From contig JALEII010000063.1 of NCBI GenBank assembly GCA_022770345.1, positions 1-37,360 on the forward strand: a DNA stretch of 37,360 bases. Direction: 5' to 3'. The notes beneath the pieces were generated by a model. The model was not told where the DNA came from. It worked only from the letters and a program-made list of their open reading frames with translations, and searched no databases. Both the position numbers and the translations under genes were made by a program. This document shows positions 5,787-28,925 of the stretch, piece after piece; within the stretch, counting starts at the first letter, position 1; every line of letters begins with the position of its first letter. The DNA comes from Clostridiales bacterium. Its GTDB lineage: Bacteria > Bacillota > Clostridia > Oscillospirales > Oscillospiraceae.

Positions 5787-5818
5787 AGGGGATACCTCCT
5801 AAATCAAATATCAGAAAA

Positions 5819-6946: not shown

Positions 6947-6951
6947 GGGCT

Positions 6952-7746
6952 TCACTCCATTCCCAGCATCCAGCGGATCGCAGGCTCCAGATTGGCTTCC
7001 CAGAATTTCCAGTTGTGGACACCGGGCGCAGTGCGGTAAACGTGGGGAACGTGGCATTCCTCCAGGAAGCGGTGGAAGGCGCAGTTTGGCTCATAGAGGA
7101 AATCCTCCGTACCGCAGGCCATGAAAATGTCGGGAATGGGCTTCCCCGCCTCCTGAAGCTGCCGCAGCAGTACCTCCGGATTGCAGGAACGCTCCGGTGC
7201 CGTCTTCAGGTCACCGAACACATGATTATAATAGGCATAGTTGGCCATAGGATTCCCCTGCTTCGGGTCCATATTGGGCAATTCATGGATAATGAGTGCA
7301 CTGGACAGGGCCATGATCTTGCTGAACCGGTCAGCAAACTGAAGGCCTGTGTGCAATGCACCGAAGCCGCCCATGGACAATCCACCGATCCAGGTATTCT
7401 CTCTGGAAATATCCAGTCCAAAGGTTTTTTCTGCGAACTCGGGCAGCTCCTGTCCCACAAAGTCTGCATAGCGTTCGCCGGTAGCTTCCCGGTTCAGGTA
7501 AAAGCTGTTTCCCGCAGCAGGCATCAGCACCGCCAGGTTGTAAGTCAAGGCCAATTCCCGGATGGAGGAACCGGTGATCCAGTCCGACTCGCAGCCGCTG
7601 TATCCATGAAGCAGAATCAGGGTTTTCGGCGGACGCTGAAGGTTGGGATTTTCCGGAAAAGGCGGAGCATCGTTGGGCAGGACCGCATAAAAATGGCTCT
7701 GGCCGGCCAGTGTTTTGGAATAAAACTCGGTGTGGATGAGAGACAT
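6952..7746 (-). CDS. Alpha/beta hydrolase, esterase D / tributyrin-esterase-like
   Basis: GLSMGG nucleophile elbow, LILLHGYSG oxyanion region, GVHNWKFWE; ATG at 7746. Confidence 0.85.
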   Translation of the reverse strand: MSLIHTEFYSKTLAGQSHFYAVLPNDAPPFPENPNLQRPPKTLILLHGYSGCESDWITGSSIRELALTYNLAVLMPAAGNSFYLNREATGERYADFVGQELPEFAEKTFGLDISRENTWIGGLSMGGFGALHTGLQFADRFSKIMALSSALIIHELPNMDPKQGNPMANYAYYNHVFGDLKTAPERSCNPEVLLRQLQEAGKPIPDIFMACGTEDFLYEPNCAFHRFLEECHVPHVYRTAPGVHNWKFWEANLEPAIRWMLGME

Positions 7747-7812
7747 GGCATAGCACTCCTTTTTTCTTTCAGTATAGCAGACTTGACCGTACAGGGCTTT
7801 CGTTTGTGTTGC

Positions 7813-7850
7813 AACGGCTTTTGGATTTGTAACCAGTGAGCCGTTTTTTT
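7813..7850 (+). terminator. Intrinsic-terminator-like hairpin + T7 in the leader region of the NIF3-like gene
   Basis: aacggct (7813-7819) / agccgtt (7839-7845), inner tgg/cca pairing, followed by T tract to 7850. Confidence 0.5.
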
Positions 7851-7923
7851 GAAAGGATCGGATACCTTCCCAAATGCGTTCCGCAGCGTTATAAGGTAAG
7901 ATATATGTGAAGGAGGCCTTGCC

Positions 7924-8784
7924 ATGAAGAATAGAGAAATTGTTGAAAAAATTCTCAGCTACCACCCACATATTCCGAATTATCACGGCTGCGATAGCTG
8001 GAAAGCCGGAGACCCGGAGGCAGAATGCACAGGCATTGTAACGGCTCTGGTACCTACGGTGAACGTGATCCGGAAAGCCCGTGCGCTGGGAGCAAATCTG
8101 CTGATCGTCCATGAGCCTACATTTTACACCTCCCAGGACGGCCCAGGCTGGTTTGAAGATTTTCCCAACCGGGTCTATGCGGAGAAGCGGCAGCTTCTGG
8201 AGGAGTCCGGGATCGCTATATGGCGGGACCACGACCATATGCACTTTCATCAGCCGGACAGCATCTTCACCGGCGTTCTGAAGGGATTGGGCTGGGAGGA
8301 CCGGGCCCATGTGGATCACAGCACCGGCTGCTATGCCCACTACCTGGTGAACCTCCCGGAAATGACGTTGGAGGCGCTGTGTCATCACCTGATGCACGCC
8401 ATCGGCATGAACGGCTTACGCTATATCGGAAAGCCCGATATGCCTGTCCGGACCGTGGCACTGGTAGGCCATCTCTTTCCGGAGGATCACGGTCTGAAGC
8501 ACCGGGACGGCTCTCCGGCAGAATACAGCGTACAGGTCATCAAAGTCCTGGAGGAGCAGGCGGATGTCATCATTCCCGGAGAAGTCATTGACTGGACGGT
8601 TCTATCCTATGTTCGGGATGCCGTGCAGCAGGGCCGGAACAAAGCCGTAATCAACCTCGGGCACCTGAACTGGGAAGAGCTGGGAATGCAATACGCCGCC
8701 GAATGGATTGGCCATCTGGTAGGCAGGCAAGTAAATGTAACGTATGTTCCTTCGGAGGATATGTACCAATTTCTGCTGCCATAG
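7924..8784 (+). CDS. NIF3-like dinuclear metal centre hexameric protein (DUF34)
   Basis: ANLLIVHEPTFY, DHDHMHF and C-terminal NLGHLNWEELGMQYAAEW metal-ligand-type motifs; GGAGG upstream. Confidence 0.8.
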   Translation: MKNREIVEKILSYHPHIPNYHGCDSWKAGDPEAECTGIVTALVPTVNVIRKARALGANLLIVHEPTFYTSQDGPGWFEDFPNRVYAEKRQLLEESGIAIWRDHDHMHFHQPDSIFTGVLKGLGWEDRAHVDHSTGCYAHYLVNLPEMTLEALCHHLMHAIGMNGLRYIGKPDMPVRTVALVGHLFPEDHGLKHRDGSPAEYSVQVIKVLEEQADVIIPGEVIDWTVLSYVRDAVQQGRNKAVINLGHLNWEELGMQYAAEWIGHLVGRQVNVTYVPSEDMYQFLLP

Positions 8785-8800
8785 ATCCCCCGACCCGTTA

Positions 8801-8846
8801 AAGCGCATCTGCCGCTTCCAAAGGGAAGCGGCAGATGCGCTTTTTT
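8801..8846 (+). terminator. Strong rho-independent terminator between convergent genes
   Basis: Perfect 19-bp stem aagcgcatctgccgcttcc/ggaagcggcagatgcgctt, 4-nt loop, T6 on the plus strand. Confidence 0.9.
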
Positions 8847-10024
8847 CACTGCAACGTTTTCATCAGAACGTCAGCCATCCGTTCTCCGCCCAACCAGTTT
8901 GGGTGTACCCCATCCCCCAGATGGAAGCCCTCCTGCATCCGGTGTACGTCATCGGGGTCCCGAAGGGCCGCATCCATATCCGCAATGCCGTCAGCGATAT
9001 GGGAATTCCGGATAAGCCGATTGTAGTCCTGCCGCAGAGCCTCCGCCTGCTCCCGCCAGGGATCGCCAAAGGAACCGAAGGGAGCAATGGTGCCAAGGTA
9101 GACCCGGCTGCCCCGCCGCTTGGCCCGGTCGGTCACATCGCGCAACGCATCAAAAATATCCTCTGCCGTGGGGACAGTCGGCTCCCGAAAGCAAAGACTA
9201 TGAGAGCAGTCGTTGACCCCTTCCATGAGAAAGACAATGTCCGGCGTGGCTCCGTCATACACGTCTGCATCGAACCGGTCCTTTCCGGCAATGCCAAACT
9301 GGTGGCCCTCACCCGGAAAGCCCGGCATGACAGGATGAGACTTCTGCAGTCGGTTTCCGGAAATTCCTGCATTCATTATGGCATATTTTCCGGGAGAACA
9401 GGCACACAGCCGTTCCAGCAGAGGGTCCATGAAGAAGGACATATGCGTGATGGAATCCCCAAAGAGGGCAATCAGCTGAACATCGTCATCGGCCAGAACG
9501 GAAATATCGCAGACCCCAGCGGCAAAATGCAGCGGATACGGGTCGTGAGCCAGTCCCGGTACCAGCTGCTCCTTGACTGTGAAACCCAACGCATCCGTTT
9601 CGGCATAGTCTCCCGTCTGATGGAAGCTCTGCCAGCCAATGCCGGTATAGCTGGTACAAGCGCTGCGCAGGACGGTTTTCTCGCCGAAATAGAGATAGAG
9701 AAGAATGTCGTCCTCAGGAGTCACGGTCAGGCTGACCGGATCCGAATCGGGCCGGGAATTGGCCTCCAGGCAAATCCGGCTGCTGCCCCGGTAGGTAATG
9801 GGAACGCGGGGTGTGACCCGGCCGTTCACCCGGTTATGGACGGCCACAGCGGCATGGCTGATAACCATAGGGCGGTCTGAATAGAGGTTATTGAAGCGCA
9901 CCCGCAGCTGCGTGCCGCCGATATTATTCCGGAACACACTTTTCTGGGTAATATTTTCCAGGACGCCCAGTTCCTGATGAAAATCAATGGGAACGTAGCG
10001 CCATGCAGGAATCCATTTTGCCAT
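8846..10024 (-). CDS. SGNH/GDSL-type esterase with N-terminal accessory domain
   Basis: IALFGDSITHMS (block I), EGVNDCSH (block III), DGVHPN (block V); no signal peptide. Confidence 0.8.
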   Translation of the reverse strand: MAKWIPAWRYVPIDFHQELGVLENITQKSVFRNNIGGTQLRVRFNNLYSDRPMVISHAAVAVHNRVNGRVTPRVPITYRGSSRICLEANSRPDSDPVSLTVTPEDDILLYLYFGEKTVLRSACTSYTGIGWQSFHQTGDYAETDALGFTVKEQLVPGLAHDPYPLHFAAGVCDISVLADDDVQLIALFGDSITHMSFFMDPLLERLCACSPGKYAIMNAGISGNRLQKSHPVMPGFPGEGHQFGIAGKDRFDADVYDGATPDIVFLMEGVNDCSHSLCFREPTVPTAEDIFDALRDVTDRAKRRGSRVYLGTIAPFGSFGDPWREQAEALRQDYNRLIRNSHIADGIADMDAALRDPDDVHRMQEGFHLGDGVHPNWLGGERMADVLMKTLQ

Positions 10025-10042
10025 TGCATTTTCCTCCTTCGC

Positions 10043-11005
10043 TTACAGCCCCTGCTGCTCCAGCCACTGGGCGCACAGCGTCCCCCACTGAGCAACATGC
10101 GGCAGGTCCATAGCAAGATCGTTGCAGCCGTCGGCCATAGCCAGCCCATGGACACCCTCCGGAAACAGATGCATCTCGAAGGGAATGCCCACGGCAGTCA
10201 GGGCCTGTCCCAGCACGAAGGAATTCCGGGGGTCATCGCTGTTGGTCTGCCAGATGAAGAACGGCGGCGTCTGCCGGGTAATATTGACCTCCGGAGCAAA
10301 ATAGATCTGCTCATCCTTACTTGCCACAAAAGGGCTGGTAGCGCGATCGCTGAAGGGGTCCACAAACAGGCCCGCAGGCAGACCGCAGGTAGCGAAGGCA
10401 GCATAGCCCAGCACCGCAGCGTCGGGGCGGCAGCTCATCCGCTCCACGGGGTCAGCTGCATTTGCGTCACCGAAGTCAAAATGGGTGGCGCAGTTGCTGC
10501 CCAGCATTCCACCGGCGGAAAATCCCATAACCGCAATGCGATCGGTGATACCCAGCTCGTTTTTTCGGAAACGCAGCAGCCGGACAGCCCGCTGCATATC
10601 GGCCAGCGCGTCATAGCGGCTGTATGGCTTCAAGCGATAGGTAAGGATAGCGGTATTGAAGCCGGCCTTGGAAAAAAACCGGGCAGCATGGAAGCCCTCG
10701 CAGCCGGTCCGGGTGGAGAAGCCGCCGCCGTGGGCCACGATCACAGTACCCCGCGGGCACTCCTGCCCGGGTGCAGGTACAAAAATGAGAGAAGGCTGAG
10801 GCTGCAGCGGATCCCGGTCGTCATAGCCGGGAGCGCCGCCTTCCCACAAAAGCATCTGGTCAAAACGTGAGAGGGCGTCGTTCCAGATCTTCAGATTCCC
10901 GGCAATATCCATCGTCCCGTCCGGGTTGCGGTGCTTGGAAACATGGCGGATAACGCTGCGCTCGGCGCAAACGGCATCCAGCGTAACGGCATTTTGTTCG
11001 TACAT
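10043..11005 (-). CDS. Alpha/beta hydrolase (acetyl-esterase/BD-FAE-like)
   Basis: VIVAHGGGFSTRTG and GFSAGG motifs; ATG at 11005 with RBS GGAGG. Confidence 0.8.
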   Translation of the reverse strand: MYEQNAVTLDAVCAERSVIRHVSKHRNPDGTMDIAGNLKIWNDALSRFDQMLLWEGGAPGYDDRDPLQPQPSLIFVPAPGQECPRGTVIVAHGGGFSTRTGCEGFHAARFFSKAGFNTAILTYRLKPYSRYDALADMQRAVRLLRFRKNELGITDRIAVMGFSAGGMLGSNCATHFDFGDANAADPVERMSCRPDAAVLGYAAFATCGLPAGLFVDPFSDRATSPFVASKDEQIYFAPEVNITRQTPPFFIWQTNSDDPRNSFVLGQALTAVGIPFEMHLFPEGVHGLAMADGCNDLAMDLPHVAQWGTLCAQWLEQQGL

Positions 11006-11024
11006 AAGAACCCTCCTTCGGTGG

Positions 11025-11888
11025 TTACAGGGGCGTGGGCGCAATCACGGCGCATTTCCCTGCGGGAATCGTCTCAACGGCAAACATAGAGGTCCGGATG
11101 GTCACATCCACGGCGCTGGGATTATTCACATAAGTCCCGTCGGCAGAATACTCCAGGCGGCGGTAGGCGTTTACATAATCGATGATTTCTCCGTTGGTTG
11201 CAAACCAGACCCGGTCGGCGTGCCCGGCCATAAAGTCCGCCAGCTTTTCAATCGTCTGCCAGTTGTCGTTGGCATCAAATTCGTAGGCATGGCCCCAGAC
11301 GTAGAAAAGTGACGGCAAGAACGGCGGCTGCTCCAGGAATTTCCCTGCCAGCGTCATCAGCTCCGGGTCATCATGGTGGCAGGTCGGGTTCCAAGTCAGG
11401 AAATCCTCCGGCAATCGAAAGGCATGGGTAGAAACCACAGTCCGGGCGCCCTGATACCCGGCCAGACGGAGCAGTTCTCTGGTATCGGCATTGTGAGTCC
11501 CGAAGGGATAGGCAAACATTTTCAGCGGTTTCCGGGTCAATTCTTCCAGACGCCGCTTGTCCTCCACGACTTCATACATGGCCAGCGGCGTCCCCACGCC
11601 GGAGAGGTCGGAGTGAAAAAGACCGTGCCCGGCAATTTCATGTCCGGCATAAACGGTTTTTGCCTCCTGCAGGCTCAGCTTGGAAAGGTCCAGGGGCGGC
11701 TTGCCCGGAAGGGAACCGCCATCCTTGTGGCCAAACAGGCCGGAACCGATATTGAAGGTGCATTTCAGTCCCCGTTTCCGGAAAATCTCTGCCAGACGCC
11801 GGTCCTGCACCACACCATCGTCATAGCTCAGAGTAAAGGCCTGGCTTTTCCCGCCGGGGAATACCAGGGAATCAAATCGCTTGCCCAT
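11025..11888 (-). CDS. Polysaccharide deacetylase (NodB/CE4-like)
   Basis: AFTLSYDDGVVQDRRLAEIFRKRGLKCTFNIG, GHEIAGHGLFHSDLS motifs; overlaps MATE stop by 1 nt. Confidence 0.8.
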   Translation of the reverse strand: MGKRFDSLVFPGGKSQAFTLSYDDGVVQDRRLAEIFRKRGLKCTFNIGSGLFGHKDGGSLPGKPPLDLSKLSLQEAKTVYAGHEIAGHGLFHSDLSGVGTPLAMYEVVEDKRRLEELTRKPLKMFAYPFGTHNADTRELLRLAGYQGARTVVSTHAFRLPEDFLTWNPTCHHDDPELMTLAGKFLEQPPFLPSLFYVWGHAYEFDANDNWQTIEKLADFMAGHADRVWFATNGEIIDYVNAYRRLEYSADGTYVNNPSAVDVTIRTSMFAVETIPAGKCAVIAPTPL

Positions 11889-13297
11889 TAGCGTATTTCC
11901 TCCTCATCTTCTTCAATTTCGCCAAAATCAGCCGTTCCCTGCACATGCTTGATCCACTTCCCGCTGCGTAGCCGCAGGAAACACCAGAATGCCTTGAGAA
12001 TCTGGTCGGAATACAGAAAGAGATAGGTAAAAAACGGCGGCAGCTTCAGGGTTAGCCCCGCCAATGCGCCCAGCGGCACGGCCACCAGCCACATGGTGCT
12101 CATATCCGCCACCAGGAGAAAACGGGTATCTCCGCCGCCCCGCAGGACACCCTTGCTGAGAATGGAGTTCACCGTGCGGAATACAACCACGATGCACAGG
12201 GCATCCATCAGTTCCATAGCGATCTCCCGTGTCTCCGGGGTGATCTTGTAGAGGGAGATCACCGTACCGGAAATCAACCGGATGACGACCGATGCCAATG
12301 CGCCGAACACCAGGCCGATGAGCAGGTAGGTATTTCCCTGCCGTCTGGCCGCCTGCACCTCCCCCTTGCCCAATACCTGACCGGTCTGGAAGCAGCCCGA
12401 GAAGGCAAGGCCCATAATGACGATGGTACTGACCCGTTGAATGACCATGGTAATGGAGTTGGCGGTCACGAAGCCGGACCCAATCCGGCCCATGATGATC
12501 GCCAGTACATTGTCACCCAGGCCAAGCAGGCAGTCGCTGAGCAGCACCGGGATACTGGTATGCAGGAATTCCCCCACCAGATCCCGGAAGGGCGTGAACA
12601 GATCACGGATGCGAAAGCGAAGCTGCTTGTTTGAAAGAAAGCTGCCGACGATCACGGAGGACTCCACGATCCGGGCCACAACGGTCCCCAGTGCCGCACC
12701 GGCAACACCCATGGCCGGGCAGCCCAGTTTCCCGAAAATAAAGACGTAATTCGCCCCGATATTGATGCCGAAAGCACAGGCCGATGCAATGAGCGGAACA
12801 TGGGAGTGCCCGATACTGCGCAGCGTGTTCGTCAGCGTGAAGGACAAAGCCATCAGCACAAAGGTCGCCGTAGACCAGCGCAGATAACGAACTCCCTCCG
12901 CAATCAGTTCCCGTTCCTCCTGCCGGAAATAGAGGCGCATGATCTGTTCCGGCAGGAAAATGTCTGCCAGCGTAAAGGCCGCACTGAGTCCCAGGCTAAA
13001 CCAGATGGCAATGGAGACCACTTTTTTCAAAGCAGGGATATTCTGGGCTCCCCAGTACCGGGACGTAAGAACGGATGCCCCCATACTGATGCCCATAATG
13101 GCAAAAACATATAGATTGATAAACTGATTGGCCTGGGTGGAAGCGCTGAGCGCTGATTCCGTCAGCTGGCCCAGCATGATATTGTCCACTAGGTTGACAC
13201 CCGTCGTAATAACGCTCTGCAAGATCACCGGGATCGCAATGGTCAGAAGCGATCGGTAAAATCGAGGGTCTTTTTCAATGATTTGTCTGCGTTCCAT
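11888..13297 (-). CDS. MATE-family efflux transporter
   Basis: 469 aa multi-TM protein with MATE signature pattern (VDNIMLGQL, ALSASTQANQ, GGGDTRF); start MERRQ at 13297 after GGGAGG. Confidence 0.9.
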   Translation of the reverse strand: MERRQIIEKDPRFYRSLLTIAIPVILQSVITTGVNLVDNIMLGQLTESALSASTQANQFINLYVFAIMGISMGASVLTSRYWGAQNIPALKKVVSIAIWFSLGLSAAFTLADIFLPEQIMRLYFRQEERELIAEGVRYLRWSTATFVLMALSFTLTNTLRSIGHSHVPLIASACAFGINIGANYVFIFGKLGCPAMGVAGAALGTVVARIVESSVIVGSFLSNKQLRFRIRDLFTPFRDLVGEFLHTSIPVLLSDCLLGLGDNVLAIIMGRIGSGFVTANSITMVIQRVSTIVIMGLAFSGCFQTGQVLGKGEVQAARRQGNTYLLIGLVFGALASVVIRLISGTVISLYKITPETREIAMELMDALCIVVVFRTVNSILSKGVLRGGGDTRFLLVADMSTMWLVAVPLGALAGLTLKLPPFFTYLFLYSDQILKAFWCFLRLRSGKWIKHVQGTADFGEIEEDEEEIR

Positions 13298-13457
13298 GCG
13301 TTTTCCTCCCAACTCGTTTCTCTGTCAGTTTATCACGCCGGAATCGCAGAGGCTATTCAAAAAGTACTCTCCGATTGCAAAAACAGCGATTCTTCCGGAT
13401 AGAGCAATGTGCCCGTTCTCCGAAAAAAAGAACGGGCGCACGGAAGTACAGCAGGAT

Positions 13458-16302: not shown

Positions 16303-17271
16303 TCAGAACAGTGCGTTGTCCGGCTCGACCACACGAACCAACAGATTGGAAAGCATCACCAGCACGAAGCCGATTATGGCCTGGAACACGCTGGCGGCAG
16401 AGGACATACTGATGTTGTTCAGCTGCAGCAGTGCCCGGTAGACGAAGGTGTCGATGGTCTGTGTGGTGCTGGTCAGCAGGCCGCTGCCCAGGGGGACCTG
16501 GTAGAAAAGGCCAAAGTCCGAATTGAAGATACGGCCGATAGACATGAGCAGCATCAGAATGATCATGGGCCGCAGCATGGGCAGGGTAATATGCCGGATC
16601 TGATTCCATTTACTTGCACCGTCCAGCCGGGCAGATTCGTAAAGGCTCTTGTCAATACCGCCGATGCTGGCCATGTAAATAATGGAGCTCTGGCCGGCAT
16701 TCTGCCAGAAGTGCACGATGGTCAGAATAATGGGCCAGTATTTCGCCGTGGCATACCAGTTCACGGGGTTATCCTTGAACACCGTAGTATTCAGGTAGCC
16801 ATAGGAAACGCTTAGAAAGGCATACACGATGAAGGACAGCAACACAGCCGACACCATGGAAGGGAAGCAGATGATCGGCTGGATGACCTTGGCGGCCCGG
16901 CGGCTGGATATTTCCGCCATACAGATGGCGATAAATACCGCTATGATGAGGTCCAGAACGATCCACACGGCGTTATAGGCCAGGGTATTGCGGATCATGA
17001 TAAAGGCGTCCTTGGTCACGAACAAAAACTTGAAGTTTTCCAGGCCACACCAGGGGCTTTGCAGAATGCCCAGAGAGAAATTGATCTTCTTGAACGCAAT
17101 CAGGATGCCAAACATGGGGATATAGTTATTTGCGATCAGATAGATAAGACCGGGCAGCATCATGAGATACAGCGGCAGACAGCGTTTTCTATCCTCCCGC
17201 TTCTTTTGCTTTTTCCGCTGGACCAGCAGATCATCGTATTCCGAGACCGCAGGCGTGACCATTTTTGACAT
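16303..17271 (-). CDS. ABC transporter permease (LplB-like)
   Basis: LYLMMLPGLIYLIANNYIPMFGILIAFKKINF; YESARLDGASKWNQIRHITLPMLRP EAA motif. Confidence 0.9.
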   Translation of the reverse strand: MSKMVTPAVSEYDDLLVQRKKQKKREDRKRCLPLYLMMLPGLIYLIANNYIPMFGILIAFKKINFSLGILQSPWCGLENFKFLFVTKDAFIMIRNTLAYNAVWIVLDLIIAVFIAICMAEISSRRAAKVIQPIICFPSMVSAVLLSFIVYAFLSVSYGYLNTTVFKDNPVNWYATAKYWPIILTIVHFWQNAGQSSIIYMASIGGIDKSLYESARLDGASKWNQIRHITLPMLRPMIILMLLMSIGRIFNSDFGLFYQVPLGSGLLTSTTQTIDTFVYRALLQLNNISMSSAASVFQAIIGFVLVMLSNLLVRVVEPDNALF

Positions 17272-17416
17272 AAACCTTCACTCCTCTTTCACAGGACGGC
17301 TCCGCGGACGCAAGAGGCCCTGTATCTATGCCTTATCTTAACGCAGGATCGCTCCGGTGACATTTGAAAAAGTGCATTGGGATTTTCAAATTGTCTGTTG
17401 TTTCCCGAACGCACCT

Positions 17417-18091
17417 TTACGGATCCGTTTGTACCAATATCTCCTTCAGCATCTGCAGGGCCGCTTCCATATTTTCTCCGTTTACCGCAATCCCTACCAC
17501 AATGTCCCGGCTGTAAAGCCCGGACCTGTGCAATGGGGAACCTCCGTGCAGCCGCACACCGGCCACCTGTCTATCTCCGCCCTCCGGCGTGGCATAGACC
17601 AGGTCCTCAGAAAAGGCCTCCAGAAGCGCCGGGTCCAGCAGCTTGGAAAGGTCCGCAAAGGCATTCTGTACCGCATAGCGGTCAAAAATTTCTTCGTCCG
17701 CAGCAAAAAAATCCAGCCCGCTGACCCCGAACAGAGCCGCCAGCACCTGCACCGTCTGTGCGTCCTCGCTTTCCTGATTTTCCCGGCCAAGAGACAGGCT
17801 CACATCGGCATCCACCCGCTTTCCCTTCAGGTCCATGCCGGAATCGGTCAGCAAGTCCTCCATGCAGGTCTGTGCCGCCTGGGTATCCGGATCTGCATTG
17901 ACCAGTACCGCATAAAGGGCAACGGAGCGGCTGTTCAACCCCTCCAGCAGGGCAATACTCCCCAACAGGACTGCACACACCAATGCAAGGATGGGAATTT
18001 TGTAATAATCCCACAGAAAGGTCCGCTTTTCCGAAGGGGAAAGAGCAGCATACCGCTGCCGGTCCCGCCGAATTCTCTCGGATAACTTCAT
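17417..18091 (-). CDS. Hypothetical membrane-anchored protein in ABC operon
   Basis: 224 aa, one N-terminal TM (IPILALVCAVLLGSIALLEGL), ATGA overlap with the upstream response regulator gene. Confidence 0.75.
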   Translation of the reverse strand: MKLSERIRRDRQRYAALSPSEKRTFLWDYYKIPILALVCAVLLGSIALLEGLNSRSVALYAVLVNADPDTQAAQTCMEDLLTDSGMDLKGKRVDADVSLSLGRENQESEDAQTVQVLAALFGVSGLDFFAADEEIFDRYAVQNAFADLSKLLDPALLEAFSEDLVYATPEGGDRQVAGVRLHGGSPLHRSGLYSRDIVVGIAVNGENMEAALQMLKEILVQTDP

Positions 18092-19686
18092 AGGCTTTCC
18101 TCCTTCCCCGGCTGGGCGGAGTTGCGCCAGTCAATGGGACTCATTCCGGCATATTTCCGGAAAACCGTGGAAAAATAAGAGATATTGTCGTAGCCAACCA
18201 TACCGGCCACGTCGCTGACCGAGTGATTGGTCGTCAGAAGCAGCCGTTTTGCTTCTTCAATGCGGATGGTATTGATGTACTCCCGAAGATTCATGCCTTT
18301 CTTGCTGTGGAACTGCTTGGAAAGGTAGTTCGGAGTGATACAGGCCACAGCCGCCACATCCTCCCGGGTGATATTGTCCATAAAATGGGCGCGGATATAA
18401 CGCTCTGCACGGGCCATAATGTCTTCATCACCGGAGGACATCAGATATTGGAGCGTCCGCTGAAAAAGCGCCGATGCAAAGCGGACCATGTGCTCCGCCG
18501 AGTAGGTACATTGTGCAGCAAGCACGGCAATGCTGCTGTCCTCAAAAAGCACCTTTCCCGTGACCCCGTTATCCCGCAGACAGGCGAGAAACACGTTGAT
18601 GACCTCCCGGCGCAGGCTGTCCAGAACCTCCCGGGTGTATTCCCCGGAGGAGGCGATGCGCCGGGTAACGGTACCCATATAGCTTGTGAAGCCTTCGCTG
18701 TCCTGCTGTTTCAGGTATTGAAGAACGGTAACGCTGTCCAGAAAATCCTTCCGCTCCCGCCGTTGGGCTTCCATTTCCGGAAGGGTACAGCAGCGGCCCG
18801 TATAGATCCGCAGTTCGTCCATGCAGCAGAGCATACGCGTCTTGATCTCCGCAGACTGATACAGCGGAAAAGGGCCGCCGACAAGGACGGACGGTTTGGT
18901 CCCGGTCTGTGTCCCGCAGATCTGTGCCAGCTGCTCACAGCGCTGCATCAGTGTTTCCCGGCTGCACTGCTCTTCGGGAATAAAGCAGGCACAGAGGATG
19001 AAGCGTTTCTCCCAGTTCGTCAGCGTGTAGGCAGAACCGATATAGCCAAGCAGCGTCTCATCATGGAGCCTTCCGATGGTGTACATCAGCAGCTCCCGGT
19101 CCCAGCCCAGCTTCAGGGCATCCGTAGAATCCGTGCAGGACATAGCCATCATCCAGCGGCTTTCCGCAGAAAATCCAATGCCGCTGCGCCGGAGCGCGGA
19201 GTCAACGGATGCGGCAGTGTTGCCGTAAATGCCGTCGCTGATCTGCCGCAGGGTGCTGTTGACCAGGCTGTCCCGGCGAAGCTGCGGCTCCGGTGTCCGG
19301 GCAGGCTGTGCCTTCTTCCGGTGGGCAGCAATCATTTCCCGGACCGTCTGCTCCACCTCTCCCAATTCAAAGGGCTTGGTCAGATAGGCCGAAACGCCGT
19401 AGCGGATGGCCTCCTTGGCGCAGGCAAAATCGTCGTAACAGGTCAGGAAGCAGAACTCACTGTCCAGTCCCTGCTGCCGGATGTATTTCAGTACATCCAG
19501 TCCATTCTTGCGGGGCATTCCGATGTCGCAGATAATCAGTTCCGGTTTTTCCGTAACGGCAATCTGAATGGCCGCTTCGCCGTTGTAGGCCTGCAATATC
19601 CGACTGATGCCCAGAGAGGGCCACGGTATCTGGTGCTCCAGGACGCCCACCGTGGAAATATCATCATCACAAATCAGAAGTTTCAT
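18088..19686 (-). CDS. YesN-type response regulator with AraC-family DNA-binding domain
   Basis: MKLLICDDDIS...ELIICDIGMPRKNGLDVL receiver; C-terminal AraC HTH (ITPNYLSKQFHSKKGMNLREYINTIRIEEAKRLLLTTNHSVSDVAGMVGYDNISYFSTVFRKYAG). Confidence 0.92.
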   Translation of the reverse strand: MKLLICDDDISTVGVLEHQIPWPSLGISRILQAYNGEAAIQIAVTEKPELIICDIGMPRKNGLDVLKYIRQQGLDSEFCFLTCYDDFACAKEAIRYGVSAYLTKPFELGEVEQTVREMIAAHRKKAQPARTPEPQLRRDSLVNSTLRQISDGIYGNTAASVDSALRRSGIGFSAESRWMMAMSCTDSTDALKLGWDRELLMYTIGRLHDETLLGYIGSAYTLTNWEKRFILCACFIPEEQCSRETLMQRCEQLAQICGTQTGTKPSVLVGGPFPLYQSAEIKTRMLCCMDELRIYTGRCCTLPEMEAQRRERKDFLDSVTVLQYLKQQDSEGFTSYMGTVTRRIASSGEYTREVLDSLRREVINVFLACLRDNGVTGKVLFEDSSIAVLAAQCTYSAEHMVRFASALFQRTLQYLMSSGDEDIMARAERYIRAHFMDNITREDVAAVACITPNYLSKQFHSKKGMNLREYINTIRIEEAKRLLLTTNHSVSDVAGMVGYDNISYFSTVFRKYAGMSPIDWRNSAQPGKEESL

Positions 19687-21337
19687 GGTTATCCTCCTTA
19701 TCCGGGATCCACAGTTCCACACGGGCGCCGCCCTGGGGGCGGTTGGAAAGCCGGAGAAGATCATCCCGATGGTAGGTCAGGTTCAGCGTATAGCGTACAT
19801 TGCTGAGGCCCAGATGCTCTTTCACAAAGGGTTCATCCCCGGAGCGCAGCTTTTCTGCCACATCCTCCGGGAAGCCCTGACCGCTGTCCTCCTCCGTCAG
19901 GCAGAAGCCGTGGAAATCGTCCCGGTCCTCCCGGACGCAGCGGACCGTGATGTCCAACGTTTCATAGAGGGACATCGCGTGCTTAATGGAATTCTCCACC
20001 AAAGTATAAAGCAGCAGGAAGGGAATTTTGCATTCTCCCGCCGCCGCATTATATTCGGCAGTGAAGCGGATCGCCCTCGGAAAGCGGGCATCCTGCATTT
20101 TCAGGTAATTGCGGATATGCCCCACCTCCGCCTCCACCGTGATCCAGGGATCGGAGACATTCAGCATATAGCGGATATACTTTGCAAACACCTGGATATA
20201 GGCGCGGATCTCCTCCGGACGGCAGGTATAGGTCATATTGCTGATGGTCGTCACAGCATTCAGAAAAGAGTGGGGCCGTATCTGCGCCCGGAGCATGGTC
20301 AGGCGGTTTGACTGCTCCCGCAGGCGCAGATCGTAGGCCTCGATCTTCAGATTCCCGATCTGCCGGGCCATGTTATTAAAGCTGTCGAAAAGTGCATCAA
20401 ACTCTTTGCTGCGGGCTTTGTCCTTGTCCAGGCGGTAGCGGATATTTCCGGCGGCGAGCATTTCATTGGCCTCTATCAGTGTGCGGGTCGGCGCTGCCAC
20501 CAAACGGCGCAGCAGGAGCAAAAGCAGCACGACCAGAGCCAGGCACAATGCAGTGATGAGAAACAGCAGCACCGGCTGGGCGATAGACTGTTCCGCCAAA
20601 GCCGGAACTGCGGAAAGAACGATCTCCCCGTCCAAATTGTAAATACGCTGCCGCACGGTGCAGCGGCCGGGATTTCCGGTCCAATCGGGTTCCCCCAGCC
20701 AGGTAAAGTTTTGATCGGGAAGTGCAAGGAAAAAGGTCGGGTCCTGCCCCAGGATTGCTACGGTCTTCTCCGGAGAAAAGCGGGACAGGCGGCAGGCAAC
20801 CCCCGCTATGTACTTTCCCAGTTGGATATTCTTATAAAAGTACGAAATATCGCCAACCTCCAGAACTTTCCAGCTTTGCTCCCGCAAGGAGAGCGGCGCA
20901 TCCAATGCGGCCGTCCAGCAGTGCGTCTTCAGGTGAAAAATATCCTGGTTGGAAAGGGTGCTGGATGCCGAAAAAAGATAAAAGTCATTCTCGGTATCCA
21001 GGACAAAAAAGGCATCCGCATCGGTACTGATCATCAGTTTGTCGTTCATCATTTCAATGATCTTCTGCTTGGTGCTCACGTCCATAATGGGCGTACCGGT
21101 GCGAAGCTCTGTACTGTTATACAGGGACACCAGCAGATCGTAAAGATGCTCATAAAGGGCGTCCAAACGGTTCTGTACGTTTCCGGCCCAGAGCTTCAGC
21201 GCATGGGCGTTGGTTTGTTCCACAGTCTGACGTACCTGGTTTCGGATGTTCCGCGTAGACCAGAGTAAGGACATTCCGATCAGCAGAATGAGGATGCTGA
21301 GAAGTGCCAGTGTTACTTTCCACCAGGAACGTTTCAT
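19667..21337 (-). CDS. YesM-type sensor histidine kinase
   Basis: Two TMs, HAMP-like region, RAQIRPHSFLNAVTTISNM His-kinase motif, EEDSGQGFPEDV N/G box; start MKRSWW at 21337. Confidence 0.9.
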   Translation of the reverse strand: MKRSWWKVTLALLSILILLIGMSLLWSTRNIRNQVRQTVEQTNAHALKLWAGNVQNRLDALYEHLYDLLVSLYNSTELRTGTPIMDVSTKQKIIEMMNDKLMISTDADAFFVLDTENDFYLFSASSTLSNQDIFHLKTHCWTAALDAPLSLREQSWKVLEVGDISYFYKNIQLGKYIAGVACRLSRFSPEKTVAILGQDPTFFLALPDQNFTWLGEPDWTGNPGRCTVRQRIYNLDGEIVLSAVPALAEQSIAQPVLLFLITALCLALVVLLLLLLRRLVAAPTRTLIEANEMLAAGNIRYRLDKDKARSKEFDALFDSFNNMARQIGNLKIEAYDLRLREQSNRLTMLRAQIRPHSFLNAVTTISNMTYTCRPEEIRAYIQVFAKYIRYMLNVSDPWITVEAEVGHIRNYLKMQDARFPRAIRFTAEYNAAAGECKIPFLLLYTLVENSIKHAMSLYETLDITVRCVREDRDDFHGFCLTEEDSGQGFPEDVAEKLRSGDEPFVKEHLGLSNVRYTLNLTYHRDDLLRLSNRPQGGARVELWIPDKEDNHETSDL

Positions 21338-21392
21338 GAGGATCTCCTTTCCGAGGGGTAATGGGGCATTTCCTGCCCCGCTTGGAAACGCC

Positions 21393-21423
21393 AAAAAGTA
21401 TGCGGGGATAATCCCCGCATACT
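21393..21423 (-). terminator. Intra-operon terminator directly downstream of the solute-binding protein gene
   Basis: 12-bp perfect stem agtatgcgggga/tccccgcatact with T run on the minus strand. Confidence 0.75.
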
Positions 21424-21444: not shown

Positions 21445-23016
21445 TTATTTGGCTGCCAGCCAGTCATTCACCTGGGTCTGGTAATCGGCAATGATGGTAT
21501 CGATACCTGCGGTCTTCAGTGCTTCAATGAACTGGGGATAGTAGTCATCGGGATTCACGTCGCCGTAAATCAGCGGCTTCACATACTGGGAAACCACATT
21601 GGAAACGGCTGCAACCTCATTCATAACGTTGGTGTTGCTGGGAGTAAAGCCATAGAGAGGAGGTGCCCAGGCTTCCTGCATCAGCTGCATACCATACTCG
21701 CTGTTGCTGCCGGTGGTGGAATTCTCGAAGGGCAGGCTCTGGAAGCCGTTGCCGATAATGCCGCAGCTATACACGCAGTTGTAAGGAACGGAGTTGGCAT
21801 CCAGTCCGTCGGGGTAACGGCAAACGGTGTGATCCTCGTTCCAGACGTAGTCCTGACCCTCGGAGCCATAGATCAGGGTGTCCCAAACGAACTCGTCGGT
21901 GTAGAGCAGGTTAATGAAGTTTGCAGCGGACTTGGGGTCCTTGCAGCTGAAGGAAATGCCGATGCCCACGGTATCCGTATACAGGTCGCCGATGCCGATG
22001 CTGACAGCGCCGAACTCTGCACCGTAGGTATTCATTTTGTCGAACATGGTAGCAACGCCTTCGCAGTCGGCGGAGTGGCCCATGATCACGCCCTTGGAGC
22101 TGCCGGACATAACCACTGCGTCATGGGTCTGGGTGTTGGCGGAGCCTTCGGGGTCCAGATAGCCCTTCTGACGGAACTCATAAGCCTTCCGGACAGCGGT
22201 CTTGAAGGCGTCGGTCTCGTAGAAGTTCACCAGCGTGGGGTCGTCGCCTACCGTTGCCACGGCACTGGACACGGAGGAGCCAACGCCGCCAACGGCGCCG
22301 ACGCCGGAAACATTCATATCATAGCTGTAAATGGTGGGGAACTGATCAGCGTAGACCAGGAAGTGCTCATCGGGATAAGCAGTCTTCAAAGCGGCCAGGC
22401 AATCCTCCAGGGAGGCCATGTCGTGGACCTTGCTCATATCGTACTTGCCGTCCACCAGAGCCTTGTTGTAAATGAACTTCCAGTCCAGAACGGTGCCGAA
22501 GTACCGGGGAATCATGTAAACGTTTCCGCCGATCTTACCGTTTTCCAGGATGTTGCCAATCTTGTCCACGGTGGGCTTCAGCTCGTTATCCAGATAATCG
22601 TTCAGCGGGATCAGGTAACCGTTGTCTACGTAGTTGCCCATGGTGCCCAGCATCATAACCAGGTCAGGACCGCTGCCGCCGGCCAGCTCCATGGGGATGG
22701 TGGTCGCGAAGTCCGCTACGGAGATGATGGTCAGATCCAGCACATAGTTGGAAATGCCCAGAGTCTCCTTCAGATACTTGTTGATGTCATTTTCCACATT
22801 CTTGGTGGCTTCGGCGCTGGGGACCGTCATCAGGGTGATGAGCTCCAGCTTGATGTGGCTGACCTCACCGGAGGTCGTAGGATCGGCAGGGGGCGTGTCT
22901 TTGCCCGTGCTGCTTGCAGCCGGGGCCGTAGTGCCGGCGGGCGTATCGCTTCCGCTGCAGGCAGCCAACCCCAGGACCATGGTCAGGGCCAGGAACAGAG
23001 CCAATAACTTTTTCAT
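21445..23016 (-). CDS. Extracellular solute-binding lipoprotein (LplA-like)
   Basis: Lipobox signal MKKLLALFLALTMVLGLAACSG followed by low-complexity linker; 523 aa. Confidence 0.92.
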   Translation of the reverse strand: MKKLLALFLALTMVLGLAACSGSDTPAGTTAPAASSTGKDTPPADPTTSGEVSHIKLELITLMTVPSAEATKNVENDINKYLKETLGISNYVLDLTIISVADFATTIPMELAGGSGPDLVMMLGTMGNYVDNGYLIPLNDYLDNELKPTVDKIGNILENGKIGGNVYMIPRYFGTVLDWKFIYNKALVDGKYDMSKVHDMASLEDCLAALKTAYPDEHFLVYADQFPTIYSYDMNVSGVGAVGGVGSSVSSAVATVGDDPTLVNFYETDAFKTAVRKAYEFRQKGYLDPEGSANTQTHDAVVMSGSSKGVIMGHSADCEGVATMFDKMNTYGAEFGAVSIGIGDLYTDTVGIGISFSCKDPKSAANFINLLYTDEFVWDTLIYGSEGQDYVWNEDHTVCRYPDGLDANSVPYNCVYSCGIIGNGFQSLPFENSTTGSNSEYGMQLMQEAWAPPLYGFTPSNTNVMNEVAAVSNVVSQYVKPLIYGDVNPDDYYPQFIEALKTAGIDTIIADYQTQVNDWLAAK

Positions 23017-23170
23017 TTCTTCAGATCCTTCCGTCTTTCATTCCGAGGGGGCTTTGCCCCTCTTGCTGCCTATATTAAACCAGACCCAGCCGGAAAACTC
23101 TTTTGATAAAGTGTACTACCATTTAGAAAAAAAGTCCAGTTCTATTTTCCTCCCGGAGGCAAAAAGCCAT

Positions 23171-23205
23171 ATATTCAACAACGGGCGGCACATTTTTAAT
23201 AACGG
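23171..23205 (+). promoter_or_regulatory. Tandem direct repeat (21-bp period) upstream of the carboxylesterase gene, candidate activator sites
   Basis: ATATTCAACAACGG (23171-23184) and ATTTTTAATAACGG (23192-23205), 11/14 identical. Confidence 0.5.
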
Positions 23206-23222
23206 TCCCCTGGAAGATACCG

Positions 23223-23228
23223 TATAAT
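23223..23228 (+). promoter_or_regulatory. TATAAT -10 element of carboxylesterase promoter (poor -35: TAACGG at 17-nt spacing)
   Basis: Exact TATAAT, 48 nt upstream of the start codon region. Confidence 0.6.
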
Positions 23229-23276
23229 AGAAGTCATAAGAACGCGGCTTCAAGCCGTCAAAACGGAGGTATGAAA

Positions 23277-24863
23277 ATGAGTTTATTTGATACTGCCAGA
23301 GTAAAGGTCCGTCAGGGCTGGCTGCAGGGTTACACAGACGGAAGACTGAAGGTGTTCAAGGGCATCCCGTATGCGGCGCCCCCCATCGGTGAGAATCGCT
23401 TCCGCAAGCCTCAGGATCCCGGCTGCTGGCGGGGCATCCGGCAGGCGACGGCTTATTCCGCCGCTTCCGTACAGCATGTCATGGAGGTGGCCGAAGCCCC
23501 TGCCAATGTTCATGGCGTTCCCCAGTTCCTGGCTCCCTCCCAATATGAGGAGGACTGTCTGTATCTGAATGTGTGGACCCCCGCCCAAACCCCGGAGGAC
23601 AAGCTGCCGGTATTCGTCTGGATTCACGGCGGCGGCATGGTGGCCGGAAGCGGCTGCGAGGTGGTCTGCGACGGCACGGGCTTTGCCGGGCGGAAAGACG
23701 TGATTGTTGTGACCATCAACTACCGTCTGGGCTTCCTGGGCTTCTTCGCCCACCCGGATCTGACAAAAGAGGGCGGCGGCACTTCCGGCAACTATGCCCT
23801 GTACGATATGCGCAAAGCCTGCCAGTGGGTAAAAGAGAATATTGCCGCCTTTGGCGGCGACCCGGAGCGGATCACCGTCGCCGGTCAGTCCGGCGGTGCG
23901 GCCGGGACCGGTGCCCTGCACGCTTCCCCGTTGATGAAGGGGATCGTTCAGCGGGTGTCCATCGAGAGCGGTCCCATTTACTGGGGCTTCATGCAGCCCG
24001 AGGACCGCAGCGTACTGGAGCAGCGGGGTGTGGAATTCATGAAGCGCATCCACTGTGACTCCATCGAGGACCTGCGCCGCCGGGATGCCTGGGAACTGTT
24101 TGACGCTTACGAGCAGTACACGGCTGAGGTGGGCTTCCACGGAGGCTTCAGCTTCTGCGTGGACGGCGAGTTCCTGCCCAAGCGGTACTCCGAGATCATG
24201 GACGCCGGAGAGTTCAACGATTTTGACGTGATGATCGGCAGCTGTTCTCAGGAATTCCCCTGTGTGGATCCGGAACAGTTCAGCGTGGAGGCCTATGAGG
24301 CATACCTGAAAGACGCCTTCCCGGATAACTACGAAAATATGCACGCCTGGTATCCCGCCGAAACCGCTGTGCAGGCTGCCAAGCAGGTCAGCACCATCGC
24401 CTCGGATATTATGCTGATGGGTTCCGTAAAGCTGGCGGAGCTGTGCCGGAAGTACGGCCGGAACGCCTATGTTTGGCTCATGTCCAAGGAAAATGAGACC
24501 CAGCGGGGCCGGGATGCCGGAAGCCCTCACTGTGCCGAAATGCCCTATGTTTTCGGAACGGTGGATAAGGGCGAGCGCAACCCCTTCTTCCCCTACCATT
24601 GGGTCGGCGCAGACTATGACTTCATGGAGCTGATTCAGGGCTACTGGTATGCCTTTGTGGCCACCGGTGATCCCAACGGAGACGGCCGTCCGGAATGGAA
24701 GCTCTATAATAAGTCCTTTGATGTCTGCGAGCTCTGCAATCATACCCACATGATCCCCGACGAGCAGCTGGCCAAGTACGCCTATTACTACAAGAAACTG
24801 CAAACCAGCTCCTACATGGTCACTCTGGGACAGATGCCCCGGTTCAGCCCGAAGGAAAATTGA
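23277..24863 (+). CDS. Carboxylesterase type B family
   Basis: GIPYAAPPIGENRFRKPQ, EDCLYLNVWTP, VFVWIHGGGMVAGSG, GQSGGAAG; ATG at 23277 has better RBS spacing than 23271. Confidence 0.93.
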   Translation: MSLFDTARVKVRQGWLQGYTDGRLKVFKGIPYAAPPIGENRFRKPQDPGCWRGIRQATAYSAASVQHVMEVAEAPANVHGVPQFLAPSQYEEDCLYLNVWTPAQTPEDKLPVFVWIHGGGMVAGSGCEVVCDGTGFAGRKDVIVVTINYRLGFLGFFAHPDLTKEGGGTSGNYALYDMRKACQWVKENIAAFGGDPERITVAGQSGGAAGTGALHASPLMKGIVQRVSIESGPIYWGFMQPEDRSVLEQRGVEFMKRIHCDSIEDLRRRDAWELFDAYEQYTAEVGFHGGFSFCVDGEFLPKRYSEIMDAGEFNDFDVMIGSCSQEFPCVDPEQFSVEAYEAYLKDAFPDNYENMHAWYPAETAVQAAKQVSTIASDIMLMGSVKLAELCRKYGRNAYVWLMSKENETQRGRDAGSPHCAEMPYVFGTVDKGERNPFFPYHWVGADYDFMELIQGYWYAFVATGDPNGDGRPEWKLYNKSFDVCELCNHTHMIPDEQLAKYAYYYKKLQTSSYMVTLGQMPRFSPKEN

Positions 24864-25937: not shown

Positions 25938-27632
25938 ATGGCCAATCGGAATCCCATGGGCGTGATGCTCAACGCCTATCCGGACAGCATTGGCGGAACG
26001 TTGGGAGACATCGTAGCCGTTCTGAAACGGCCGGAGCTGAAAAATGCGTTTACCTCCTTCTATATCCTGCCCAGCATTTTCAACACGGACCTGGACCGGG
26101 GCTTTTCTTTGATCGACTACGGCCTGAACCGTCTGCTCTCCTCTCCGGAGGACCTGGACGATCTCCGGGCCATGGATATGGACCTGGCCCTGGATTTCAT
26201 CCTGAATCATGCCTCCGTACTGTCCAAGGAATTTCAGGACATTCTGAAAAACGGAGACCGTTCCCCTTACCGGGATTTCTTTATTGACTGGAACCGATTC
26301 TGGGAAGGCCACGGAACCATGACCGCCCAGGGCTATATCCGGCCGGACCCGGAGCTAACACAAAATATGTTCTTCCGGAAGCCCGGTCTGCCAATTCTGA
26401 TGGTACGTTTCCCGGACGGCCGGGATGTTCCCTACTGGAATACCTTCTACCAGAAGGTGGAATATGACCGGGTGGACCCGCAGGACCTGATGCAGGCAGC
26501 GCCTTTGCAATACGGAGAGGCCGCCCTGCTGTCCGGAATGGTCAATGAAGCGCTGGATGCCGGAAAAGCCCCCGCCGAAATGGATTTTGGAAAGCTGAAC
26601 GCTTATCGGGAAGCCGTATGCGCCTATCTGGAGAGCCGCCGGAAATATCTGGGGCAGATGGACCTGAACATCCGCTCTCCCCTGGTCTGGGACTACTATC
26701 AAAAAACGCTGGAGACCCTGGCCGGTTACGGAGCTGCCATCGTCCGGCTGGATGCCTTTGCCTATGCCCCCAAGGAAGTCGGTGCACGGAATTTTCTGAA
26801 TGACCCCGGCACCTGGGAGCTGCTGGACCGGATCGCAGCGCTTGCAAAGCCCCTGGGGCTGACACTGCTGCCGGAAATTCACGCCAGCTACGGTGAAAAG
26901 ACCTATGCACTGCTGGCCTCCAAGGGCTACATGGTCTATGATTTCTTCCTGCCGGGTCTGCTGATCGATGCCTTCGAGCAGCACAGCGGTGCCTATCTGA
27001 AGCGCTGGATTGACGAGATCACGCAAAATCACATCCGAACGGTCAATATGCTGGGCTGTCATGACGGCATTCCCCTTCTGGACCTGAAAGGGCTTCTGGA
27101 TGAGGCGCGCATCGGAAGCCTCATCGATACGGTGGTCGGCCGGGGCGGTTATGTGAAAAACCTCCACGGTCAGAAGAACGTATATTACCAGGTGAACGCC
27201 ACCTATTACAGTGCTCTGGGCGAAGACGACCGGCGGATGCTGCTGGCCCGGGCTGTTCAGATGTTCATGCCCGGAAAGCCCCAGGTCTGGTATCTGGATC
27301 TGTTCGCAGGCAAAAACGACTATGAAGCCATGCGCCGGGCGGGAAAAGACGGTCACAAGGAGATCAATCGGACCAATCTGTCGCCGGACGACGTTGCACA
27401 GGGACTAAAAAAAGAGGTCGTTCTGAGGCAGCTGGAGCTGATGCGGATGCGGAACACCTTCGCCGTGTTTGCCCAGGATGCCGAGATCGCAGCCAAGGCT
27501 TCGGGAAGCACCCTGGAGTTGACCTGGAGCCGTCAGGACGAAACCGCCGTTCTGCAGGCAGACTTTGCCTCTTGCGCTTTTACGGCATCGGTACGGGACG
27601 CAGGCGGGGAACGCTTCCGCCTGCAGCAATAA
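25938..27632 (+). CDS. GH13 subfamily 18-like glycoside phosphorylase (sucrose phosphorylase family)
   Basis: LDFILNHAS, IVRLDAFAYAPKEVG (nucleophile Asp region), LLPEIHASYG (acid/base Glu), MLGCHDGIP. Confidence 0.85.
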   Translation: MANRNPMGVMLNAYPDSIGGTLGDIVAVLKRPELKNAFTSFYILPSIFNTDLDRGFSLIDYGLNRLLSSPEDLDDLRAMDMDLALDFILNHASVLSKEFQDILKNGDRSPYRDFFIDWNRFWEGHGTMTAQGYIRPDPELTQNMFFRKPGLPILMVRFPDGRDVPYWNTFYQKVEYDRVDPQDLMQAAPLQYGEAALLSGMVNEALDAGKAPAEMDFGKLNAYREAVCAYLESRRKYLGQMDLNIRSPLVWDYYQKTLETLAGYGAAIVRLDAFAYAPKEVGARNFLNDPGTWELLDRIAALAKPLGLTLLPEIHASYGEKTYALLASKGYMVYDFFLPGLLIDAFEQHSGAYLKRWIDEITQNHIRTVNMLGCHDGIPLLDLKGLLDEARIGSLIDTVVGRGGYVKNLHGQKNVYYQVNATYYSALGEDDRRMLLARAVQMFMPGKPQVWYLDLFAGKNDYEAMRRAGKDGHKEINRTNLSPDDVAQGLKKEVVLRQLELMRMRNTFAVFAQDAEIAAKASGSTLELTWSRQDETAVLQADFASCAFTASVRDAGGERFRLQQ

Positions 27633-28083: not shown

Positions 28084-28925
28084 CTATTTTTCAAAATTTC
28101 CGGAATTTTTTTGTAGATCACGTCCGCCACGGCCCCATCATCGCAGCCGCAGACCCGGTCGAAGGCCCCGGCGATAACCCCGTCCGCCGGAACATAGGCA
28201 AAGTCTGCCCCTTCCAGCATGGGCCGGTCGTTCTCCGCATCCCCCACACAGACCAGGATTTTCCGGCCCATTTGGGCCTGTAAATTCCGGGCGGAGCGTA
28301 TTTTCGACACACCATTGGCTTGCACGTCCACGATTCTGGGTGCCGCCCGGAACACCGCTGCCTTTCCGGCGTAAGTATCCTTCAGCCACTGCTCCACGGC
28401 GTCCATTTCCGCCATTTCCTCCGCCGTGGCATGAAACAGGGAATCCACGCTGGCGTGTTCGTCCAGATAGCCGAACAGGGAGAATTTCAGAAACGGCTCC
28501 GCCGGGTCCCGCTGGGACAGGGGCGCATAGTCGCACTTCATAAAGTCATAAAAAGCCTTCACCCCCGGGGTAATGCGGTTGCAGAAGTGGGCCGCCACCC
28601 CCTGGACCTCCAGATTCAGATCCGGGTACTTGGCCGACACCTCCGAGACCACCTGCTCTAAGGGCACGGGAATTTCCCGGATGTTGTCCAGCCTCCCGTC
28701 CTGCCAGGTGGCCCCGCCGTTATACAGCAGGAACGGGGCGCTGTGGGGTAACGTATAGAGATACTGCCGGAAGGTGGGGATGCTCCGGCCGGTATTCACC
28801 GTGAAGGCCCCGCCGTTTTCCATAAAATAGGCGATGGCTTCCAGATTCCGCTCCGGGATGGTGGAATTCTGGGCGGTGAGGGTCCGGTCAAAATCCACGG
28901 TCAAAAGCACGTCGGAAAATAGCAT
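28080..28925 (-). CDS. HAD-family (Cof-type) hydrolase
   Basis: TVDFDRTLTAQN motif I, NGGATWQDG, VCVGDAENDRPML motif IV. Confidence 0.88.
   Translation of the reverse strand: MLFSDVLLTVDFDRTLTAQNSTIPERNLEAIAYFMENGGAFTVNTGRSIPTFRQYLYTLPHSAPFLLYNGGATWQDGRLDNIREIPVPLEQVVSEVSAKYPDLNLEVQGVAAHFCNRITPGVKAFYDFMKCDYAPLSQRDPAEPFLKFSLFGYLDEHASVDSLFHATAEEMAEMDAVEQWLKDTYAGKAAVFRAAPRIVDVQANGVSKIRSARNLQAQMGRKILVCVGDAENDRPMLEGADFAYVPADGVIAGAFDRVCGCDDGAVADVIYKKIPEILKNS

Follow-up and report, generated by a model that had tools for sequence, protein, structure and literature searches.

The window analysed here, i.e., the whole stretch of 37,360 nt of contig JALEII010000063.1 (assembly GCA_022770345.1, Clostridiales bacterium), contains an intergenic region from which a carboxylesterase gene and an importer operon, which also encodes a YesMN-type two-component system, are read in opposite directions. 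The genes and the predicted promoter elements involved are the following:

18088..19686, minus strand: YesN-like response regulator of the AraC type, the proposed binder (Pfam Response_reg and HTH_18)
19667..21394, minus strand: YesM-like histidine kinase (Pfam His_kinase and HATPase_c)
21445..23016, minus strand: solute-binding lipoprotein (SBP) of the importer (Pfam SBP_bac_1 and DUF3502)
23074..23079, minus strand: -10 hexamer TTTAAT of the SBP operon, extended (TGG before it), 21 nt after the box
23097..23111, minus strand: proximal half-site of the SBP/importer promoter, CTTTATCAAAAGAGT, a conserved TTTTTTGAAAG box in relatives
23118..23132, minus strand: distal half-site of the same promoter, TTTTTTCTAAATGGT, lying 21 bp upstream of the proximal one
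23170..23184, plus strand: distal half-site in front of the esterase, TATATTCAACAACGG, with the proximal one exactly 21 bp downstream, an equivalent in relatives and a peak at offset 21
23191..23205, plus strand: proximal half-site of the esterase promoter, CATTTTTAATAACGG, over the -35 position and aligning with the conserved CACTTTTTTRATATT of relatives
23223..23228, plus strand: -10 hexamer TATAAT of the esterase promoter, 21 nt after the box in the window
23277..24863, plus strand: carboxylesterase (PF00135, Pfam 2.8e-98), the target gene

The esterase starts at the ATG at 23277, with a GGAGG (23265-23269) seven nt ahead. For its promoter, the original prediction had described two repeats, ATATTCAACAACGG (23171-23184) and ATTTTTAATAACGG (23192-23205), identical at 11 of 14 positions and offset by 21 bp, followed by a TATAAT (23223-23228) placed 17 nt after a poor -35 (TAACGG, 23200-23205), and both the letters and the positions proved to be exact; no TGn precedes this TATAAT. 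The AACGG shared by the two repeats is, however, particular to this locus, the conserved core being instead CACTTTTTTRATATT with a distal GAAANTCAAAAG. A second pair, at the importer promoter and facing the other way (about 23097-23132), had been overlooked. Regarding the repeat as such, in dinucleotide-shuffled intergenic stretches of the same length (260 bp) an 11/14 pair appears by chance with a frequency of 0.0045 at offset 21, of 0.03 at offsets 20-22, 31, 32 or 42, and of 0.23 at any offset between 14 and 59, and, because any-offset pairs are that common, the raw repeat alone is weak, suggestive evidence. The raw self-identity of the esterase-side half-sites (z 1.6) is likewise a poor test, since the distal half-site, which at 7 bits scores lowest among the four that the window has between the two genes, is closer to the common motif than to its partner. 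A position weight matrix (PWM) test was used in its place.

A DNA-level search of 60 genomes with this intergenic region returned the window's own copy as the sole match, so that the orthologous loci were reached through the solute-binding protein. The resulting set comprises 22 loci from Clostridia and Erysipelotrichaceae: the window and 21 relatives, of which L003 and L004 are from the same genus (about 72% identity) and the other 19 that proved usable (L032-L050) are from other bacteria. The SBP is present in all of them, and the esterase and YesMN are kept wherever the contig extends far enough, in the conserved order esterase / SBP - YesM - YesN - o17417 - LplB - YtcP as far as the contigs allow it to be followed. 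In most Erysipelotrichaceae the promoter precedes another alpha/beta-hydrolase gene and the carboxylesterase comes second, according to a reading of the 200 bp before the esterase as the end of the hydrolase gene. In L003, the promoter is separated from the esterase by an insertion (about 1020-1190) that contains inverted repeats (CAGTGTGCGCACTGG).

Footprinting in relatives had been named beforehand as the refuting test, and its outcome, obtained by alignment of the intergenic regions and anchored extraction, spoke for the prediction: in each of the 22 loci a TTTTTTRATA box is kept as the proximal site, together with a half-site at exactly 21 bp on its upstream side and a -10 hexamer 21-22 nt downstream, and little else is conserved in the intergenic region (the loosest matches to the motif are those of L033, L034 and L049). 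On the esterase side, the consensus layout consists of a distal half-site of about GAAANTCAAAAG, the proximal CACTTTTTTRATATT 21 bp downstream and then a TATAAT-like hexamer, at a distance from the box of 21 nt in 20 of the 22 loci and of 22 nt in the remaining two. The SBP side faces the other way, with a distal ATTTTGAAAT-like half-site, the proximal TTTTTTGAAAG and then a TGnTTWAAT that is kept in most loci, the box-to-minus-10 distance being 21 nt, or 22 nt in five loci. The mean information on the esterase side (15 loci) amounts to 0.77 bits in the distal half-site, 1.24 in the proximal one (a figure biased by the anchoring of the rows at this box) and 1.20 in the -10, versus 0.27 elsewhere, which gives a profile of three peaks and little outside them.

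The spacing was recovered independently of the second site. When a PWM made from the proximal boxes of the other loci was moved upstream of the esterase-side box, its sole peak fell at offset 21 (score of 2.5, with a mean of -10.4, an sd of 2.7 and a maximum of -3.4 at the other offsets), and on both the esterase and the SBP sides 21 was the best offset although no second site was assumed. Furthermore, a PWM trained on one of the two promoters in other loci recognises the other promoter, with peaks at offsets 0 and 21. The repeats are thus real, evolutionarily conserved sites, predicted to be bound by a protein, and they show what is expected of an AraC/YesN-type regulon, i.e., direct repeats about two helical turns apart, upstream of or overlapping the -35, together with what is expected of a class-II activator-dependent promoter, i.e., a good -10, a poor -35 and a near-fixed distance between the box and the -10.

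The motif is not restricted to these two promoters, and three further features of the window have to be considered:

16303..17271, minus strand: importer permease, LplB-like (Pfam BPD_transp_1)
17335..17393, minus strand: third promoter with the motif, before lplB, CAATTTGAAAATCCC-N6-CTTTTTCAAATGTCA, with -10 TAAGAT; the best match of profile R1 in the window
13327..13385, minus strand: fourth candidate promoter, before MatE and the esterase/deacetylase gene run, region TGTTTTTGCAATCGG-N6-ACTTTTTGAATAGCC, with -10 TAAACT; found with R1 and the PWM

In a scan of both strands of the window with the PWM from other loci, the best dual-box sites were 23101 (-), the SBP promoter, at the top, and also 17362 (-), before lplB, 28116 (+), and 23201 (+), at the originally predicted site, with 13354 (-), before MatE, scoring slightly lower. 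Profile R1, a sequence-only profile built from 32 promoters of relatives with the window left out, and whose E-values are rough, placed the lplB (E 1.7e-4), MatE (0.006) and esterase (0.012) sites as its top three in the window, and the SBP promoter sixth (0.27). At lplB, the proximal box recurs in relatives with a weaker distal half, the best offset for the distal box according to the proximal-box PWM being different from 21; at MatE, clear conservation was not found in the single relative inspected. The match at 28116 (+) was rejected, as it falls in convergent intergenic DNA resembling an inverted repeat; this DNA (28089-28116), which mimics the motif, is probably a terminator. In the genomes of relatives, R1 found non-training sites unlinked to the importer directly before a PF00756-type esterase (43-46% identity to the one at 6952-8397 of the window) in three genomes, and, in a fourth one, in the region separating a MalK-BD-FAE operon from a divergent hydrolase. 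In 98 other related genomes, E < 1e-3 was reached only in the two that have the close importer orthologue, both of them training genomes. Several weak genome-wide matches, e.g., before clpB, were treated as probably due to chance, as was the match at L094 5467-5522.

The predicted operator is thereby common to the importer operon and to catabolic genes, as in AraC/YesN-type regulons, and, because the SBP-YesM-YesN and lplB promoters carry the same motif, the divergent esterase is connected to the importer through this site, just as had been proposed. Altogether, a sugar importer and a set of enzymes that remove esters are probably switched on jointly through these sites.

The regulator to which the esterase promoter had been attributed is intact. 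In 17 orthologues, the receiver of YesN is complete, with an invariant acidic pair (D8/D9) and phospho-acceptor (D54), and the helix-turn-helix domain is the best conserved part of the protein, its two putative recognition helices (TPNYLSK-F and NISYFST-F) being nearly invariant, as would be expected if a single motif were read throughout. An intact receiver and an AraC-type double HTH are hence encoded in the locus itself, and in the block from the esterase to YtcP no protein other than YesN has a recognised DNA-binding domain, which makes the attribution to YesN strong, though by association. Another member of the block, o17417 (17417-18091, minus strand), is a 224-aa protein with an apparent N-terminal membrane segment and no Pfam match, kept between yesN and lplB in nearly all loci. 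The genome contains eight HTH_18 genes, i.e., YesN and seven others, at least one of which encodes another long protein (547-aa frame), and one of these seven could in principle be the binder. It is nevertheless unlikely that the tandem sites are operators of another AraC-family regulator, or of a regulator of any other type, encoded elsewhere, with YesN as a mere neighbour: across Clostridia and Erysipelotrichaceae the motif accompanies the yesMN-importer block, no other protein with a recognised DNA-binding domain is part of that block, and the recognition helices of YesN are almost unchanged. The sites almost certainly belong to the neighbouring two-component regulator, judging from these genomic associations.

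It is thus highly probable that the tandem half-sites are operators for phosphorylated YesN, which would from there activate the class-II promoters of the importer and the esterases. In such a mechanism, the importer substrate would be sensed outside the cell and YesM would phosphorylate YesN at D54; YesN would then occupy both half-sites, which lie 21 bp, or two helical turns, apart and hence on one face of the DNA, and would contact the RNA polymerase at the position of the absent -35, some 34 nt ahead of the start site, thereby allowing transcription from the TATAAT at 23223-23228. The geometry is consistent with it, since, with this TATAAT as the -10, about 34 nt lie between the start site and the end of the proximal half-site core, which overlaps the place of the absent -35, with the distal half-site two turns further up. 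The same operator would activate the opposite-facing SBP-YesM-YesN operon, and, as yesM and yesN are downstream of one promoter, positive autoregulation is to be expected; activation would extend to the lplB permease operon and, probably, to that of MatE and the esterases. In this way, uptake by the importer and intracellular de-esterification of an acylated oligosaccharide would rise together.

A different use of the same sites by YesN, as a repressor or in a loop between the divergent promoters instead of simple class-II activation, would suit a proximal box that covers the -35 region at both promoters, as well as the presence of four half-sites in one intergenic region, which could loop as in ara. 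However, a usable -35 is missing from the esterase promoter, which is what activator dependence would predict, and so there would be little basal activity to repress; moreover, in Caldicellulosiruptor bescii an activating role has been inferred for AraC-type two-component regulators whose tandem sites lie upstream (PMC8579813), and an E. coli reporter showed activation by XuaR (PMC11127375), all of which makes this alternative very improbable. That the repeats arose by chance in A/T-rich intergenic DNA beside an ordinary weak promoter, as any-offset 11/14 repeats do in 23% of shuffles, has a negligible probability and is already contradicted by the footprint, given the retention of both boxes and their spacing in 22 loci and the cross-promoter recognition. 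The activator-dependent architecture of the AraC type originally proposed is consequently supported, with half-sites, spacing and -10 distance all conserved.

On the minus strand, the MatE transporter gene is followed by a series of genes for ester-acting proteins (4281-13312), namely a polysaccharide deacetylase, a BD-FAE, a GDSL lipase, a PF00756 esterase, a CE2-type protein (CE2_N/GDSL) and a beta-lactamase-fold protein, which suggests a dedicated acyl-saccharide locus; MalK is encoded in the window as well. Downstream of the carboxylesterase, a gene at 25938-27632 (plus strand) encodes a sucrose-phosphorylase-like enzyme (best PDB match 6s9u, 593 bits), and such a gene is found near the esterase in several relatives. 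Acylated oligosaccharides are a reasonable putative substrate of the importer. More tentatively, and with a probability short of even, there might be a conserved YesMN regulon for acylated saccharides, made up of the importer, many esterases and deacetylases and the sucrose-phosphorylase-like enzyme under tandem YesN operators, by means of which gut and rumen bacteria would import acyl-sucrose or other ester-rich oligosaccharides whole and de-esterify them inside the cell.

YesMN-type systems adjoin many sugar importers of gut Bacillota and their operators have rarely been defined. Here, comparison alone has led to a precise predicted operator, with half-sites 21 bp apart located 21-22 nt before the -10, and to a predicted regulon that links the importer with unlinked esterases, which hints at what the importer takes up; both can be tested with one purified protein. 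The type of switch is already known, i.e., AraC-type two-component activators with tandem-repeat sites, but the motif and the gene set appear not to have been described previously; a paper defining a YesN operator was not found in the literature searched, which was mostly that outside subscription journals.

At araI1-araI2, the two half-sites are offset by 21 bp and overlap the -35. These AraC half-sites are upstream of the araBAD promoter of Escherichia coli, where the downstream one recruits the RNA polymerase (PMC4760080), and the likeness to the esterase promoter lies in this layout of two half-sites upstream of a promoter; AraC is, however, a sugar-binding protein and not a response regulator, and in the window the motif is A/T-rich and the arrangement is carried by several promoters. 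The AraC-type two-component regulators of C. bescii, inferred to be activators, have tandem repeats with large spacers upstream of the promoters of carbohydrate-utilisation operons (PMC8579813); the resemblance is in that tandem-repeat layout and concerns other organisms and another gene set. In the CuaDSR three-component system, a solute-binding protein gene adjoins a YesN/AraC-family pair that controls an importer (PMC10384115), as the SBP gene does here, although CuaD is a second, sensing binding protein, whereas the window has a single one. The authors who described XydR and XuaR reported the lack of a consensus or of a conserved site, and conserved binding sites could not be identified for the xua operon (PMC12175519). 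In functional terms, the closest parallel is nonetheless XuaSR, from Ruminiclostridium cellulolyticum, an AraC-family system with control over an importer as well as over feruloyl and acetyl esterases inside the cell (PMC11127375): both cases combine an AraC-family response regulator with an ABC importer and intracellular esterases, with the difference that the xua esterases are inside the importer operon, unlike that of the window.
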